Positions 1 to 10,092 of a stretch of DNA of 10,543 bases are shown here, in pieces. This stretch comes from Rodentolepis nana (lineage: Eukaryota > Platyhelminthes > Cestoda > Cyclophyllidea > Hymenolepididae). The translations under genes and the position numbers were made by a program. The stretch covers positions 1 through 10,543 of the forward strand of contig UZAE01013740.1 in NCBI GenBank assembly GCA_900617975.1, given 5' to 3'. The notes under the pieces were generated by a model that worked only from the letters and a program-made list of their open reading frames with translations, was not told the DNA's origin and ran no database searches. Positions within the stretch are counted from its first letter, which is position 1. Each line of letters starts with the position of its first letter.

Positions 1-47
1 ATTGTATGTCATATTCGACCACTTTCGCAGTACTCACCTCACCTTTA
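1..47 (+). mobile_element. Partial ribozyme-headed retroposon, copy F (window edge)
   Basis: The first ~47 bases match the interior of the retroposon family in this window. They align with 831-877 of copy A and with the equivalent part of copy B, including the shared run TGTATGTCATATT and the later CAGTACTCA. The similarity fades after about 47, where the family would continue into its GTCT-rich pyrimidine tract, so this copy seems to lack its 3' half. Retroposons are usually shortened at the 5' end, so a later deletion or rearrangement is more likely. The 5' half with the ribozyme would lie outside the window. Confidence 0.6.
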
Positions 48-704
48 TATCTTCCTACGTGATACATATCTAAACGAATCGCTTTTATTTAAATGTGCAA
101 TAAAATCGATGAAGACCTATTGGCTGGAAGTGAAATGGTTTTTGCTTTCATAACCTTTTGACCTTTAATGGACGAGTGTGAAAAGTTTTCCTTCTGGTTC
201 ATGAAAGGCTGTACTTTTTATAAATATTACTTAAAGTGCGTTTTATGCTTGATTGATTATGATCATATAGTGAGGCTATCTATTCGTTCACCCGCGGAAG
301 TAAAAAATTAAAATTTAAGGAAGCAACTTGCATAGAATAACAGAAAGTACAAGATTGCCAAGTCTGAAAGGATCAAAATGATAGAATAGGTAAAATTGAA
401 GTATCGAAGAAACCTTCTTCATGTGATGTTTTGACAAGCAGCGTAGCATATTTACCAAATTGAGGATTTCCAACACTAGAAATTTCTCTTGAGTCGATTC
501 AAACTCTTGTCTGCGATATTGACTCCTTATTGGCAGGTATTAGTTCATCCAAAGGGAACGATCTTTTCTTCCAATAGTTGAGAATTCAATCCATTTTATA
601 TGAAATTCTGTAATTCACAGTTAACACAGAAGATATGAAGAAACTAAAATTTTTGGAGCTAACAGAACCCCGTAAGGAATGTCCATACCATATGTATAAT
701 TTCA
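48..704. other. AT-rich non-coding stretch, nothing recognised
   Basis: This interval lies between retroposon fragment F and the target-site duplication of copy A. I found no credible exon, RNA gene or repeat in it. A short open frame starting at 635 runs straight into copy A and is explained by that repeat. Confidence 0.5.
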
Positions 705-717
705 AATTCATTATACT

Positions 718-790
718 GGGGTGTGCGTTAGACTTACCTCCACGTGGTGCATCCAGGGCAACATATACTCATACGGCAAAATGGTCTATT
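718..790 (+). ncRNA. HDV-like self-cleaving ribozyme, copy A (probably weakened)
   Basis: The fold places P1 as 718-724 with 749-755, P2 as 729-734 with 783-788, P3 as 736-738 with 746-748, and L3 as TCCACGT at 739-745. P1.1 pairs the two C of L3 (740-741) with GG 756-757. P4 is 762-766 with 771-775, and the predicted catalytic cytosine is C777. Cleavage would fall between 717 and 718, the insertion boundary. Defects are a G-A mismatch at the first P1 pair, an A-C mismatch in P4 and a shortened P2, so activity is doubtful. L3, P3, the CAAC joint and the active-site GC are intact. Confidence 0.62.
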
Positions 791-1050
791 AATCGGCAGT
801 TGACTTCTGACTTTAATATACCACCACCCCATTGTATGTCATATTCGACTACTTCCACAGTTCTCATTTTATCTTTTCTGTGCCTTTGTGTCTGTCTGTC
901 TGCCTCTTTTACATCTGTAAATCATTATTCTCTCCTCCCTCTCGACTTTTTTTCACTTGGATGCTCCTTCATCTCTCTGAAGTCCGAAGTCAACTAAAGG
1001 ACTAATGATAACTATCAAAACGCCTGCCATTTGATATAAATAAATAAATA
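718..1050 (+). mobile_element. Ribozyme-headed SINE-like retroposon, copy A
   Basis: This is a non-autonomous retroposon of about 333 bp. It is flanked by a 13-bp target-site duplication with one mismatch: AATTCATTATACT at 705-717 and AATCCATTATACT at 1051-1063. It begins with GGGG exactly after the left duplication and ends with CCTGCCATTTGA (1023-1034) plus a TAAA-repeat tail. In order it holds an HDV-like ribozyme (718-790), a linker with CACCCC (825-830), a pyrimidine-rich centre with GTCTGTCTGTCT (near 890-901), and a 3' segment related to the LINE relic at 1222-1862. It encodes nothing: an open frame running through it from 635 is not family-conserved. The tail and duplication show target-primed insertion by a LINE-type reverse transcriptase. 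Pairing changes in the ribozyme suggest an older copy than D. Confidence 0.88.
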
Positions 1051-1221
1051 AATCCATTATACTATTTTTTTATGTTGCTATGACTCACATACATTCCTTT
1101 AAGTGCCCATTAGTTACTGTTAGGTTACAATGAATTAGGATTTTGAGAAGATGATAACAATACAAATTTGTTATATTACTTTAGTTGTTCTCTTCCCTCC
1201 CCTCTGCTGAGGTTTCTATTC

Positions 1222-1862
1222 TAATATTATTATTATTTCAAATGGCAGGCTGTCTTCTGGCTTCCCAATATCTCTGGATTTCCGTCGTTGCCTTTAGGGC
1301 TGGACACCGAATCAGGTGGGTCTTCTCCATTTCCTCCTGTAGGTTACATAGAGGGCATGTGGGTTGAGTGTATGCTCCCAATCTGTGAAGGTGTTTTGCC
1401 AAGCAATCATAACCGGTACGTAGTCTAAACTCATCAACGGCTTCGATTCTTGGCCAGTCGGGTATGTCGGAGAGTGCCACTTTCCACTATTTCTCCTTTG
1501 TTCGAGCTTTAAGTTCGTTGCACCTTGAGGTCTTGAATTCTCTCCTGATTAAGGCCTTCATTGTGTGGAAAGACATCTGCCGGTCTATGCCTTTCAAAAT
1601 CGTTGTCCCCTTCTTAGCAAGTGTGTCAGCAATCTCATTGCCTTTAACGCCACAGTGACCAGGAATCCATTGTAGGACCACTGTTTTGTTTTTTCTCTCA
1701 GCAGCTGATAGAGTTTTTACATTCGTTTATCTCAGCTGTTTTGGGTGGTTCTCTGTTTCCAATGGAGTTTATTGCTGACTGTGGGTCCGAAAGGATTACG
1801 GCTTTGGTGAATTTCATATCCATTCTATTCATATATTATTGCCAATGTCAACTCGTGATATT
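1222..1862 (-). pseudogene. Decayed 3' end of an RNase H-bearing LINE (RNase H domain + CCHC knuckle)
   Basis: On the minus strand this encodes the C-terminus of a non-LTR retrotransposon polyprotein, which normally degrades RNA in RNA-DNA hybrids during insertion. Three frame segments are visible. About 1862-1825 gives a weak YHELTLAII-like helix. About 1820-1705 holds FTKAVILSDPQSA, whose D (1785-1787) matches the third RNase H catalytic acid. Then 1726-1238 holds WIPGHCGVKGNEIAD, with the conserved His and final Asp, followed by C-x2-C-x9-H-x3-C (CPLC...HLIRC). Lesions are two frameshifts (near 1825, and near 1700 where one base seems lost) and an in-frame TAG at 1487-1489, between KEK and WKVALSDIPDW. 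The final TGA (1238-1240) lies inside CCTGCCATTTGA and is followed at once by an AAT-repeat tail (to about 1222). Clade assignment within I/R1/Jockey-type elements is uncertain. The copy is non-functional. Confidence 0.85.
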
Positions 1863-2349: not shown

Positions 2350-2420
2350 GGGGCGTGCGATAGACTAACCTCCACGTGGTGCACCCTGGGCAACGCATAC
2401 TTATACGGCAAAAAGTCTAT
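2350..2420 (+). ncRNA. HDV-like self-cleaving ribozyme, copy B
   Basis: P1 is 2350-2356 with 2381-2387: a G-U pair at the cleavage site, then three G-C pairs, one C-A mismatch, and two more pairs. P2 is 2360-2366 with 2414-2420 (7 bp, perfect). P3 is 2368-2370 with 2378-2380, closing the 7-nt L3 TCCACGT (2371-2377). P1.1 pairs 2372-2373 with GG 2388-2389. P4 is 2394-2398 with 2403-2407 (one mismatch). The predicted catalytic cytosine is C2409, after G2408. The cleavage position, between 2349 and 2350, is exactly the edge of the target-site duplication. Confidence 0.7.
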
Positions 2421-2675
2421 AAACCGGTAGTTGACTTCTGACTTCAAACTACCATCACCCCCACTGTATGTCATATTACACAGCTTTCACAGTACTCATC
2501 TCACCTTTTCTCTGGCTTTGTGTCTGTCTGTCTCCTCTACAACTGTGAATCACTCTTCTGTTCCCCCTCCCGAATTGTCCTCACTTTGATTTTCCTCCCT
2601 CTGCGAAGCCCAAAGTCAGCTAAATGGCTAATGACAAATATTCAAAACGCCTGCCATTTGAATTAATAATAATAA
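2350..2675 (+). mobile_element. Ribozyme-headed SINE-like retroposon, copy B
   Basis: This copy of about 326 bp has a perfect 14-bp target-site duplication, TATTGTTGGTAAAT, at 2336-2349 and 2676-2689. It starts with GGGGCGTGCGATAG immediately after the left duplication and ends with CCTGCCATTTGA (2650-2661) followed by an AAT-type tail. It contains the ribozyme head (2350-2420), a 7-bp hairpin GGTAGTT/AACTACC (2426-2432 with 2447-2453), a CACCCC segment (2456-2461), the GTCT-rich pyrimidine region and the LINE-like 3' end. The perfect duplication implies a fairly recent insertion. It carries no coding capacity. Confidence 0.9.
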
Positions 2676-2689
2676 TATTGTTGGTAAAT

Positions 2690-5099
2690 GAAGGCAGAGT
2701 GGGTATGATAGGTGACAGTTTCGAAGTAATGCAGACGTACAGGTCACTTTGTCAGGGCTATGAATCAGAGTAAGTTAAGATACAAAATTACGATGTGGGA
2801 ACCTGTCACTCGATTTTGAAGTAATCAGATGTTTATGTTAGTTAGCTTAAAAGCCGACATTTATAGACATTTTAAGAAGTTATTCGATCACCAATGCCAT
2901 TGTGATAACACTTGTGATAAGGATACTGAAGAAGCAAGCCAGACAGATACGGATGGCGGCATAAAGGCTGGAGCGTAGACGGGTTGGAATTTATGGCATG
3001 ATGAAATGAAGAAGAATTATTTGTGCCAGGTCAGTTGGTCAAAGAGAGGGGAGTTTAAGTTGACTTTTCAGACAGATTTGATTCACGATTAAGGCCAGGC
3101 TGAATCATTAAAAGGAACTATTCGAAATTATTTTTTTAATTCTAGCAAATTATTAACTGAAGGAAAATTTATTAATGGCTTAATTAAAATTTGAAATTGC
3201 TTGCATTTTTCCTGATTGGGAATCACTATGATCAAACTAATTGTATCAAGTCAACGATTTGACTTGAGACAGAGCTCAACATTAGCTCATGTCAACCAGC
3301 GAATAAAACTTGCTCAACTTCAAACAACTCCTCAAGAGAACAGTTGATTATATGAAAATCTTGGCATTTGACCCCACCACTCTTGAATCTTCTCATTGTC
3401 TTCTGAAGCATCTGAAGTAATAATAAGAATGCATTGAATCTCTGGAGTTTCTGAATTTTAAGGTGGTGTTACTTCACACTTATCGAGATAAATTTAAGAA
3501 CATTTTTCGGTTAAGAAGCTAAATTCGCGTGCCAGGAATGGAAATGTTTCGTCATGGTGCTACCACGTTTGGACGCAATCTGGGGACCGTTGTAAAACGA
3601 ATACATATCTTCCACCAACACCTACCCTCGTGGCATAACCAATTTCCTTTCCAGAGTACCGACAAATTACTCACCCAAAGCATCGAGAGTAAAAGACATT
3701 TATACCATGACTATAGTCCTCAAATAGAGTTGAATAAAGCTTATGGCCACAATGTTGCTTAGTATACCAAAATTGGTGATTATGTAGTGATACAATTACT
3801 GTCTGAATCGGTTGTGACAGACTTAATAGGCATAATCTCGGGTCACTTTGAATACGAATCCTTCAGGACTAAGTGGTAGATTTCACGAATAAGATTTTAA
3901 TGAATGAGATTGGAGCCTTGCATGGATTTTGTTCCACTAAGTTTACTACTGGTTCGTTATTGTGAGAAACAGTTTTGAAAAGGATCATTTCCGCGGGTCG
4001 TTTGCGTTTGTCATCCGTCTTTACTGATCGCTTTGGACGGTAAATGAGTTTTGATCTAAATTGAACAGGATTGTATTGTCATTTTGGAGACTTGATCTTA
4101 GTGGACGACTTGGGAGTTTTAGGGAGACGCAAAGTCCAATCATCTTCCCTGTAGTCCTTTGGTTGGGGGGGAGGGTGGCTTGCCTGTTTAGTCCGGATTT
4201 AGGAACCATGGCTAATTGGACATGGTAGACTCGGAGGCAGGGTAAACTGAGATGACTCTTGGCTTGGTAGATTCCAACATATATATGAAATTTGTCACTT
4301 TTACACTATCTCCAGTTGGTAATTATGAATCCATGATTTTGTTGACGTCGGAAACACATTTGCATTACAAATCGCCGCAATAGAGGCCAATACAACAGGC
4401 GATTAAGTAGGGATTCTGCAGAGACAACTTGTATTTTTGATGATTGGCTCTCAAACATTCTGAACAGAATAGTGAGCTATTTGGTATCTAAAACCCGAAG
4501 ATTTGATGCTTTTGGCATGATAGAAAATATCAAAGAGGTCAGATAGTATGCAACCTGGTACTTATTTCGACCTGAATAGCCCCCAAAGGTAGCGATACCA
4601 AGTAATTGCCTCAAAGGTAGGCCTTACACCGAAATACTGTTAGACAAGCCATCGTAGAATTGAGCACATGATAACAAGCCAGCAAATTTTTAGGAATAAT
4701 TAATGATTTATTTATATCAAATGGCAGGCATTTTGAAGCAATCATCCAACTTTTGGCTAAAAAGTATTCAAAATAGCTTTGCCAAAAATCCGAAAATGCA
4801 TAATTTGTGTTGAACTGTGAGAGAAACGAGACGGACGATGTTGTTGGGAAATAAAAATTGTTGTTTGAGGATTTGAATGGAAAAGGAAAAATAATAAAAA
4901 ATACCTAGATAACTATTTTAGCAGCTTAACTCTATCGGTTAGCGCGAGTAGACTTATGACCCATATTTACTATTGACAGGCCTGACTAAATTTGTATTCA
5001 AATGTGATAATGGGTTACCGTGGACGCAATGAACCTTCATGAGATGAGGTATTGGAGACTTTTCTTGGTATACTGACGAAAATGTAGCAAATATACTAG
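2690..5099. other. Long AT-rich stretch without recognisable genes
   Basis: No exon, RNA gene or known repeat is convincing between copies B and C, apart from the short tail fragment near 4705-4750. A 77-codon open frame at 3529-3762 has no recognisable domain and is of background length. A guanine-rich run lies near 4160-4180 (a run of seven G, then GAGGGTGG). Confidence 0.45.
4705..4750 (-). repeat. Tail-only fragment of the retroposon or its LINE
   Basis: The complement of 4717-4728 is the family 3' signature CCTGCCATTTGA, preceded by TCAAAATG and followed by ATATAAATAAATCA, like the tails of copies A and C. Upstream similarity is weak and lost within about 25 bases. This is either a severely 5'-truncated insertion or a relic of another element that uses the same 3' end. 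I could not define a target-site duplication. Confidence 0.55.
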
Positions 5100-5110
5100 T
5101 TATCAATTTC

Positions 5111-5305
5111 GGGGTGTGCGATGGACTTACCTCCACGTGGTGCACCCTGGACAACGTATACTCACACCTTACCTCCACGTGGTGCACCCTGGGCAACGTA
5201 TTCTCATTCGGCTACCTCCACGTGGTGCACCCTGGGCAATGTATACTCATACACCTCCACGTGGTGCACCCTGGACAACGTATACTCATACGACACAAAG
5301 CCTAT
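5111..5305 (+). ncRNA. Expanded HDV-like ribozyme region of copy C
   Basis: One P1 5' strand (5111-5117, GGGGTGT) and one P2 5' strand (5121-5128) are followed by four core units and a single P2 3' strand (5298-5305). P2 still pairs over eight positions with one mismatch. Unit 1 gives P3 5129-5131/5139-5141, L3 TCCACGT and P1' 5142-5148, with P1.1 GG at 5149-5150. Its own P4 is poor. Unit 4 has a good P4 (CGTAT/ATACG) and is followed by A5293 and C5294, the likely catalytic position. All four P1' strands read GCACCCT and could each pair with the single P1 5' strand. Whether this RNA cleaves cannot be judged by eye. Confidence 0.5.
5129..5292 (+). repeat. Four tandem ribozyme-core units of 39-43 bp
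   Basis: Units begin at 5129, 5171, 5214 and 5253, each with ACCTCCACGTGGTGCACCCT followed by GGRCAAYGTAT. Each carries P3, L3, P3', P1', P1.1 and P4, but not the P1 or P2 5' strands. Spacing is 42, 43 and 39 bp. The differences lie mainly at the junctions and in the P4 loop. The other copies each have one such unit. Confidence 0.92.
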
Positions 5306-5574
5306 TAACTGACTTCTGACTGCAAACTACCATGACCCCACTAAAGGTCATATCCACCACTTCCACAGTACACATCTTACCTTTTCTCTAACTTTGTGTC
5401 TCTCTGACTCTTTCACATCTGTGAATCATTATTCTGTCCCCCCCCCCTCTCGATTTTTTGTCCCTGTGATATTCCTCATCCCCTCTGTGAAGCCCGACGT
5501 CAACTAAAAGGCTAATGATAACTATCTAAACTCCTGCCATTTGATATAACTAAATAAATAAATTTATCAATTTC

Positions 5575-6177: not shown

Positions 6178-6323
6178 AGAACCAAGATATTATTATATCA
6201 AATGGCAGGCGTCTTGATGGTTATCATTAGCCCTTTAATTGATTTCAGGCTTCACAGGGAGGAAGGTATATCAAATTGAAAAAAGTCGAGGGGGGAGGGG
6301 GAACAGAAGAGTGGTTCACAGAT

Positions 6324-6403
6324 GTAAAAGAGACAGACAGACACAATGGTAGAAAGAAGGTGAGTAAAAGAGACAGACAGACACAATGGTAGAAAGAAGG
6401 TGA
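6324..6403. repeat. Exact 40-bp tandem duplication inside copy D
   Basis: Positions 6324-6363 and 6364-6403 are identical. The unit begins GTAAAAGAGACAGACAGACA and ends AGAAGGTGA. In element sense it lies in the GTCT-rich pyrimidine region. Complete identity argues for a recent slippage or template-switch event. No other copy in the window shares it. Confidence 0.95.
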
Positions 6404-6481
6404 GTTGAGTACTATGGAAGTAGTCGAATATGACATACAGTGGGGTCATGGCAGTTTGAAGTGAGAAGTCAACTGACGAAT

Positions 6482-6554
6482 AATAGACTTTTTTGCCATA
6501 TATGTATACGTTGCCCAGGGTGCACCACGTGGGGGTAAGTCTATCGCACACCCT
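6482..6554 (-). ncRNA. HDV-like self-cleaving ribozyme, copy D (predicted most active)
   Basis: Read on the minus strand, P1 is 6554-6548 with 6523-6517 (AGGGTGT/GCACCCT, all seven pairs, one G-U). P2 is 6544-6537 with 6490-6483 (ATAGACTT/AAGTCTAT, eight perfect pairs). P3 is 6536-6534 with 6526-6524. L3 is CCCACGT (6533-6527), where the other copies begin with T or TT. P1.1 joins 6532-6531 to GG 6516-6515. The joint is GCAAC, and P4 is 6510-6506 with 6501-6497 (one G-U). G6496 and C6495 are the active-site pair, with C6495 as the predicted general acid. Strand order, the 3-bp P3, the 7-nt L3 and the GCAAC joint all fit the HDV-like family. Predicted cleavage is immediately 5' of the P1 base at 6554. 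Confidence 0.8.
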
Positions 6555-6567
6555 AGAACCAAGATAT

Positions 6568-9772: not shown

Positions 9773-10092
9773 TGCTAATTTTTAGCAAATAGCAGGCTTT
9801 ATGCCAGTTATCATTAGCCTTTTAGTTGACTTCTGGCTTCACAGGGAGGAAGGAGCATCAGAATCACATGAAGTCGTGGGAGGGAGGGGGGGGGGAACAG
9901 AAGAATGATTCACAGATGTTGGACAGACAGACATAGAAAAAGGTAAGATGAGTACTGTAAAAGTGATCGAATTTAACATGCAGAGGGTTCATTGTAGCTT
10001 GAAGTCAACTCTCGGTCTATAAACTGTTTTTGTCGTATGAGTATACGTTGACCAGGATGCACCACGTGAAGGTAAGTCTATCGCTCCATCCC
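9773..10092 (-). mobile_element. Ribozyme-headed SINE-like retroposon, copy E (oldest)
   Basis: This minus-oriented copy is about 320 bp. The flanks share TGTTTTA at 9761-9767 and 10093-10099, extending as a 10/12 match to 9772 and 10104, which I take as a decayed target-site duplication. The 3' signature has one change, CCTGCTATTTG (complement of 9786-9796), and the A-rich tail is degraded. The element-sense C-rich tract is long: the plus strand shows GGG, GGG and ten G at 9878-9895. Its 3' part holds GAAGCCAGAAGTCA (complement of 9827-9840), which matches 13 of 14 bases of the LINE relic. The altered tail and duplication suggest an older insertion than B, C or D. Confidence 0.82.
10019..10092 (-). 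ncRNA. HDV-like self-cleaving ribozyme, copy E
   Basis: On the minus strand, P1 is 10092-10086 (GGGATGG) with 10060-10054 (GCATCCT): six of seven positions pair. The fourth pair has changed from G-C to A-T on both strands relative to copies B-D. P2 is 10081-10075 with 10025-10019 (seven pairs, one G-U). P3 is ACC/GGT, closing L3 TTCACGT (10070-10064). P1.1 uses GG 10053-10052. P4 is a perfect CGTAT/ATACG (10047-10043, 10038-10034), and the catalytic cytosine is at 10032. One extra base sits between P1 and P2. It is plausible but weaker than copy D. Confidence 0.62.

Follow-up and report, generated by a model that had tools for sequence, protein, structure and literature searches.

A predicted HDV-like self-cleaving ribozyme at the 5' end of a short retroposon and its partner LINE in the tapeworm Rodentolepis nana

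The window analyzed here, a stretch of 10,543 nucleotides that makes up the whole of contig C3854 in a 107-Mb eukaryotic assembly, carries copies (A to E) of a dispersed short retroposon of about 320 nt (Table 1), and it raises the question of what lies at the 5' end of this element and what that end does. The first-pass annotation, prepared from the sequence alone, had proposed that each full copy begins with an HDV-like ribozyme folded as a nested double pseudoknot. We consider it very likely that the 5' end of the retroposon, and of a partner LINE described below, is a predicted HDV-like ribozyme that would cut before the first nucleotide and so free the full-length element RNA from any longer transcript.

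The proposed fold is borne out by copy D, which on the minus strand can form all five helices. P1 and P2, both claimed to be complete, have every one of their seven pairs, with an eighth P2 pair possible. The GCAAC joint and a run of A residues after the predicted catalytic cytosine are present as well. The first position of L3 (6533) is C in copy D versus U in the family; we take this base to be the counterpart of U20 of HDV, which supports the active site. Copy D may thus cleave poorly and is perhaps not the best copy for an assay. In the family consensus, G1-U7 reads GGGGUGU and pairs fully with GCACCCU, using the wobbles G1-U38 and U7-G32. As for the register, the Rfam alignment of copy D begins at 6552, and the seven-pair P1 begins at 6554, the first base of the element; with P1 counted from 6554, the predicted cleavage falls exactly at the element boundary.

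Table 1. Features of the window, with coordinates, strand and supporting detail
Feature	Position	Strand	Detail
Short-element interior fragment	3..56	+	at contig start
TSD of copy A	709-717 and 1055-1063		CATTATACT
Copy A	718..1053	+	ribozyme 718-789
LINE 3' end, 5'-truncated	1222..1822	-	RNase H and zinc-knuckle end, internal 3'UTR deletion, tail
TSD of copy B, 14-nt	2336-2349 and 2676-2689
Copy B	2350..2677	+	ribozyme 2350-2421; young subfamily, 94% to L009:2096
3'-tail fragment, LINE or short element	4707..4745	-
Copy C	5111..5563	+	ribozyme core four times in tandem; registers start 5111, 5153, 5196, 5235
TSD, 3' side of copy D	6178..6190	.
Copy D, short retroposon	6191..6554	-	includes 40-bp internal tandem duplication
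TSD, 5' side of copy D	6555..6567	.	abuts nt 1
HDV-like ribozyme (predicted), copy D	6482..6554	-	nt 1 = 6554; strict descriptor, pair check, Rfam score
P1 of copy D	6554-6548/6523-6517	-	7/7 pairs, AGGGUGU/GCACCCU
P2 of copy D	6544-6538/6489-6483	-	7/7 pairs, AUAGACU/AGUCUAU; closes at 6483
P3 of copy D	6536-6534/6526-6524	-	3/3 pairs, ACC/GGU
L3 of copy D	6533-6527	-	7 nt
P1.1 of copy D	6532-6531/6516-6515	-	2/2 pairs, CC/GG
P4 of copy D	6510-6506/6501-6497	-	5/5 pairs, CGUAU/AUAUG
Catalytic C (predicted) of copy D	6495	-	after P4
Copy E	9780..10092	-	ribozyme 10092-10019

A structure-descriptor search, named in the first-pass annotation as a check on its claim, recovers copy D. The strict descriptor allows no mismatches in P1, P2, P3, P1.1 and four P4 pairs, and includes the catalytic cytosine and an A-rich J4/2. 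Within the window it matches once, starting at 6554, and in 48 loci totaling 257,610 bases (about 258 kb, mostly picked for the ribozyme-headed family) it finds 25 sites, all of them within the family. No match occurs on either strand of 1000 first-order Markov windows, by which a chance fold was rejected. A looser descriptor, with one mismatch allowed in P1 and one in P2, gives 27 matches in 60 random windows; it arises by chance, so near-miss copies alone are not evidence.

Comparison with the Rfam covariance models, the other computational check suggested for the fold, gives RF02682 as the closest family. The RF02682 scores are 39.6 bits for copy D (E = 1.3e-4; gathering score 44), 37.2 for B, 25.9 for E, 25.6 for C and 24.9 for A, and RF00094 (HDV_ribozyme) gives 30.7 for D and 26.5 for B. 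All five window copies are below the gathering scores. Eight family copies, all outside the window, do pass RF02682 when it is applied at its gathering threshold to 15 sources. Over the whole genome, 61 of 25,212 first-look candidates were scored, and 59 of these match RF02682. The highest score is 54.5 bits, and 37 exceed the gathering score; the places are known by score alone and are candidate members of the family. In 14 control genomes this search gives no matches, and viral contigs contain no exact match to a 23-nt core. Several of the top RF02682 matches, including G000:C698:15715-15786, C1487:9981-10052 and C2258:27216-27287, span 72 nt rather than 70 and may represent a second ribozyme subfamily.

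The claim that the architecture of copy D is also that of A, B, C and E stands only in part. Each of A, B and E has broken pairs: one each in P1, P2 and P4 of copy A, one in P1 and one in P4 of copy B, and one in P1 of copy E, in which pair 4/35 is A-U instead of G-C. Copy C is interrupted, its four tandem cores leaving no contiguous ribozyme. Such arrays of ribozyme cores lacking complete flanking helices are seen in copy C at 5111-5291, with a spacing of 39-43 nt, and a similar one lies in another copy at L023:6981-7179. Copy D contains an exact 40-bp tandem duplication of its own (6324-6403). A reading frame of 99 aa runs over copy D and one of 120 aa overlaps copy A; a Pfam scan of the 99-aa frame returned no match. 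At its 3' end, the short element reads GGCTAATGATAA...GCCTGCCATTTGA, followed by a TAA or TAAA tail.

The element boundaries agree with the predicted cleavage site. In a sample of 267,669 bases, 119 copies or fragments could be placed with room at the 5' side; the first base is exactly nt 1 in 64 of them, whereas 22 begin no earlier than position 261 and are tails, partly of the LINE. Across 71 copies the information content never exceeds 0.43 bit in the 25 bases upstream, is 1.39 bits at nt 1 and does not fall below 1.19 bits anywhere in positions 1-15. In 28 of 59 full copies, 8 nt or more of the 5' flank recurs exactly behind the tail as a target-site duplication (TSD; two being plain AT runs), versus 0.5% of swapped-flank controls. 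The TSD touches G1 without a gap in 21 of the 28, among them window copies A, B and D. The original proposal that the predicted ribozyme forms the 5' end of a retroposon is upheld, in that the predicted cleavage site coincides with the 5' end of the element and the TSDs touch G1. The short-element copies look like target-primed insertions of an RNA beginning at G1.

A new result is that the short family does not stand by itself: the genome also contains a partner LINE, which starts with what is predicted to be the same ribozyme. At LINE 5' ends located from a match to the endonuclease region, the ribozyme is present in six of six cases, all beginning GGGGTGCGCGATAGACTTACCTCC, and its seventh P1 pair is C-G instead of U-G. 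In LINE copy C3255, a 14-nt TSD abuts G1. The LINE and the short element are 90% identical over nt 1-81 and 86% over nt 1-97, and their 3' tails are 83-88% identical over about the last 54-67 nt. A comparison of the short-element interior (nt 98-260) with nine LINE pieces, one of which is partly N (930 of 2150 bases), yields one 31-nt stretch (E = 0.022), found in two overlapping pieces. With the same ribozyme head and a similar tail, the short element has the look of a companion that arose from the LINE by internal deletion or by recombination.

The LINE pieces match RVT_1 (E = 5.6e-39) and RNase_H (E = 6.5e-18), along with a weak endonuclease match (E = 0.0037) and a zinc-knuckle match that are both below cut-off; these domains and the ends were assembled from pieces of several copies and do not imply the intact autonomy of any one of them. 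The reading frame has its ATG 105 nt from G1, leaving no room for an ORF1 before it. The best match of the reverse transcriptase (RT) is an ENA protein (68%), and the nearest named proteins are from Rodentolepis nana (89%, covering 62% of the query), Hymenolepis microstoma and spiders. In agreement with R. nana or a very close relative as the host, one R. nana protein of 248 residues is matched in this genome at 99% along 214 of them. A PDB search with the N-terminal piece of the LINE gave no meaningful match. We note that not every LINE head is intact. A diverged copy (L010:221-622, 79%) reaches about LINE nt 101 with no ribozyme upstream, and is either 5'-truncated or part of a subfamily with a different 5' end. 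A LINE 5' ribozyme piece at L030:3017-3118 is without P1 and runs antisense to LINE coding sequence; it is a rearranged or nested insertion.

Allowing up to 3 mismatches, a 34-nt core has 15,618 occurrences across the 107 Mb assembly (7570 + 8048), or one per about 6.9 kb. The 60-nt stretch from G1 to the catalytic cytosine, again with up to 3 mismatches, occurs 6,244 times (3159 + 3085), and at least 100 matches to this pattern are exact. A LINE-type 45-nt core is found 398 times, with exact matches at 39 places. Reversed-pattern controls for the 34-nt, 60-nt and 45-nt cores give no matches in any case. The LINE-type cores are unevenly distributed by contig strand (271 versus 127), and among the matches listed, several on the minus strand are located some 190-620 bases from the start of a contig; the imbalance is probably an assembly effect at contig ends broken by repeats.

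For the analysis of conservation, 79 copies (73 distinct) of the 87 distinct placed 78-nt stretches were aligned, drawn from a sample biased by the picking of most loci for similarity to copy B or the LINE. Eight stretches, which carry deletions or tandem cores or lack part of the 5' end, were left out (L012:2109, L015:4295, L015:7066, L023:6981, L023:7102, L030:3017, L040:708 and window:5196, the last from copy C). The catalytic cytosine is kept in 75 of the 79 aligned copies. All 24 pairs together with the cytosine are found in 20, and 37 have the cytosine with at most one broken pair.

Majority consensus sequences were derived for a young subfamily (23 copies with at least 89% identity to L009:2096) and an old one (42 copies). 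The two consensus sequences differ at 0 of 76 positions in the ribozyme versus 22 of 172 in the interior (Fisher p = 3.7e-4) and 4 of 47 in the tail. The comparison took in only copies whose start (at position 10 or lower) and end could both be aligned, a choice that may favor conserved ends. Young copies deviate from their own consensus equally in the ribozyme (54/1743, 3.1%) and in the interior (123/3900, 3.2%), so the unchanged ribozyme more probably reflects the source elements than the mutation rate. For old copies the corresponding values are 275/3132 and 939/6857, rates that probably mix subfamilies.

Covariation adds nothing to this picture. Over the 79 copies, 91.1% of cells are paired versus 90.8% after shuffling, with 51 of 500 shuffles as high, and the covariation score is equaled or exceeded by 252 of 500 shuffles. 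Controls with slid helices show changes on both sides in 8-12 pairs versus 6 for the model, but only 27-48% of their cells are paired. This outcome is expected for copies that decay after insertion, yet it lends the fold no support. Nested minimum-energy folds of four sequences do not show the ribozyme, the method being unable to draw pseudoknots; three of the four are no more stable than shuffled sequences, and the LINE fold is more stable (10 of 200 shuffles as stable).

Several other explanations of the conserved 5' end were weighed. It seems improbable to us that the region is conserved mainly as DNA, in the role of an internal promoter, or as a site bound by the LINE protein, with a weak or inactive HDV-like fold. 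The lack of independent support from covariation fits such a reading, as does the precedent of the 77-nt hallmark of L1Tc (Pr77), which PMC8256844 presents as both promoter and ribozyme. It leaves unexplained, however, why all five helices should coincide with the catalytic cytosine and the L3 motif precisely where the element begins, with an architecture that the strict descriptor never met in random windows and with eight copies exceeding RF02682, an independent model. Moreover, promoter or binding-site roles and a ribozyme role are not mutually exclusive.

We regard it as highly improbable that a formerly active ribozyme has lost catalysis and that the present copies are relics. Although 59 of the 79 aligned copies are without the full set of pairs plus cytosine, the exact recurrence of the LINE-type and 60-nt cores argues against this, as do the closeness of young copies to their consensus (about 3%) and the identity of the ribozyme consensus in both subfamilies. 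A chance likeness within an ordinary Pol III SINE is scarcely credible: it draws only on the chance occurrence of the looser descriptor, and it is opposed by the strict one and by the nearly identical sequence that heads a LINE. No Pol III A or B box was matched in the single short-element copy and the single LINE 5' end that were scanned, and a tRNA search of the window found none; a Pol III SINE was rejected on these grounds.

The reading we favor, that of a self-cleaving 5' end, suggests the following cycle. The elements would be transcribed by read-through from outside promoters, and the nascent RNA would fold co-transcriptionally and cleave itself before G1 by means of the catalytic cytosine, which in copy D is 6495, so that the product would start with a 5'-hydroxyl G (or A). 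The LINE protein, presumably made from the ATG 105 nt in, would recognize the similar tails and copy both RNAs by target-primed reverse transcription, the released RNA having the exact 5' end needed for the next cDNA copy. Because the ribozyme is kept downstream of the cut, each full-length insertion would carry it again, and the short element would then need no promoter or coding region.

How does this arrangement compare with known systems? L1Tc is a LINE with a single ORF for endonuclease, RT and RNase H. PMC4035085 reports that L1Tc and NARTc have in common a 5' HDV-like ribozyme of about 77 nt and the 3' end, with cleavage just 5' of +1, and that cleavage was shown for the L1Tco/NARTco pair of T. 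congolense. Like L1Tc/NARTc of Trypanosoma cruzi (L1TcRz/Pr77), the tapeworm LINE and short element have a common predicted 5' ribozyme and a similar 3' end. Unlike that pair, they reside in an animal host, have a core present in more than 15,000 copies and end in simple-repeat TAA/TAAA tails. Judged by sequence, the tapeworm pair is a new member of this kind of ribozyme-headed LINE with a short companion.

A second parallel is provided by R2 of Drosophila and the R2/R1 SIDEs, the latter being short non-autonomous elements that according to PMC3414825 combine a 5' HDV-like ribozyme with a LINE 3' end, have ribozymes that cleave, and are probably mobilized by the LINE machinery. The tapeworm short element likewise joins a 5' HDV-like ribozyme, for which cleavage is predicted, to a LINE-like 3' end. 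R2 is site-specific in 28S rDNA and co-transcribed with rRNA, whereas the tapeworm family is dispersed, with varied TSDs. SIDEs reside in rDNA, one of them in fewer than five copies in D. innubila (PMC3414825), in contrast to thousands here. Among Rfam 15 families, RF02682 (HDV-F-prausnitzii) and RF00094 have the same helices and core motifs; host and setting differ.

PMC8256844 lists HDV-like ribozymes from Anopheles, Drosophila, sea urchin, lamprey, lancelet and nematodes, partly at retrotransposon 5' ends, and flatworms or platyhelminths are not mentioned in that paper. A search of the open-access literature, which takes in few subscription papers and no repeat databases, gave no HDV-like ribozyme from a tapeworm among the matches listed, and nothing for ribozyme, Hymenolepis and retrotransposon combined. 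In the H. microstoma genome paper (PMC7653826, as far as its text is accessible), LINEs make up 1% of the assembly and 14.8% of the repetitive sequence is unclassified; the word "ribozyme" has no occurrence in that text.

The family would be an animal counterpart of trypanosome L1Tc/NARTc, namely a LINE with a ribozyme-sharing companion thousands strong. Since its likeness to the LINE is almost confined to the ribozyme region and the tail, the companion amounts to a natural experiment on what an RNA needs in order to be copied by such a LINE. With so many copies, nature also supplies a broad collection of ribozyme variants, and the cutting of host transcripts by ribozyme-headed insertions becomes testable. 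A bolder possibility, which we hold to be rather doubtful, is that the short element is a promoter-less parasite with the ribozyme and the LINE recognition tail as its only working parts, and that thousands of host transcripts are cut. If this were true, any host transcript running through a copy would yield RNA ready for retrotransposition, sense copies in introns or UTRs would cut the transcripts that contain them, and the genome would be among the most ribozyme-dense of animals, a case of ribozyme cleavage shaping host gene expression.

Two minor observations concern the surrounding genome. A short-element copy at L015:2217 is preceded, at a distance of 16 nt, by the end of a tRNA gene (L015:2127-2200; Rfam score 55.4 bits). 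The COX1 gene at G000:C1797:9958-11292 contains seven in-frame TGA codons, consistent with an animal mitochondrial code.
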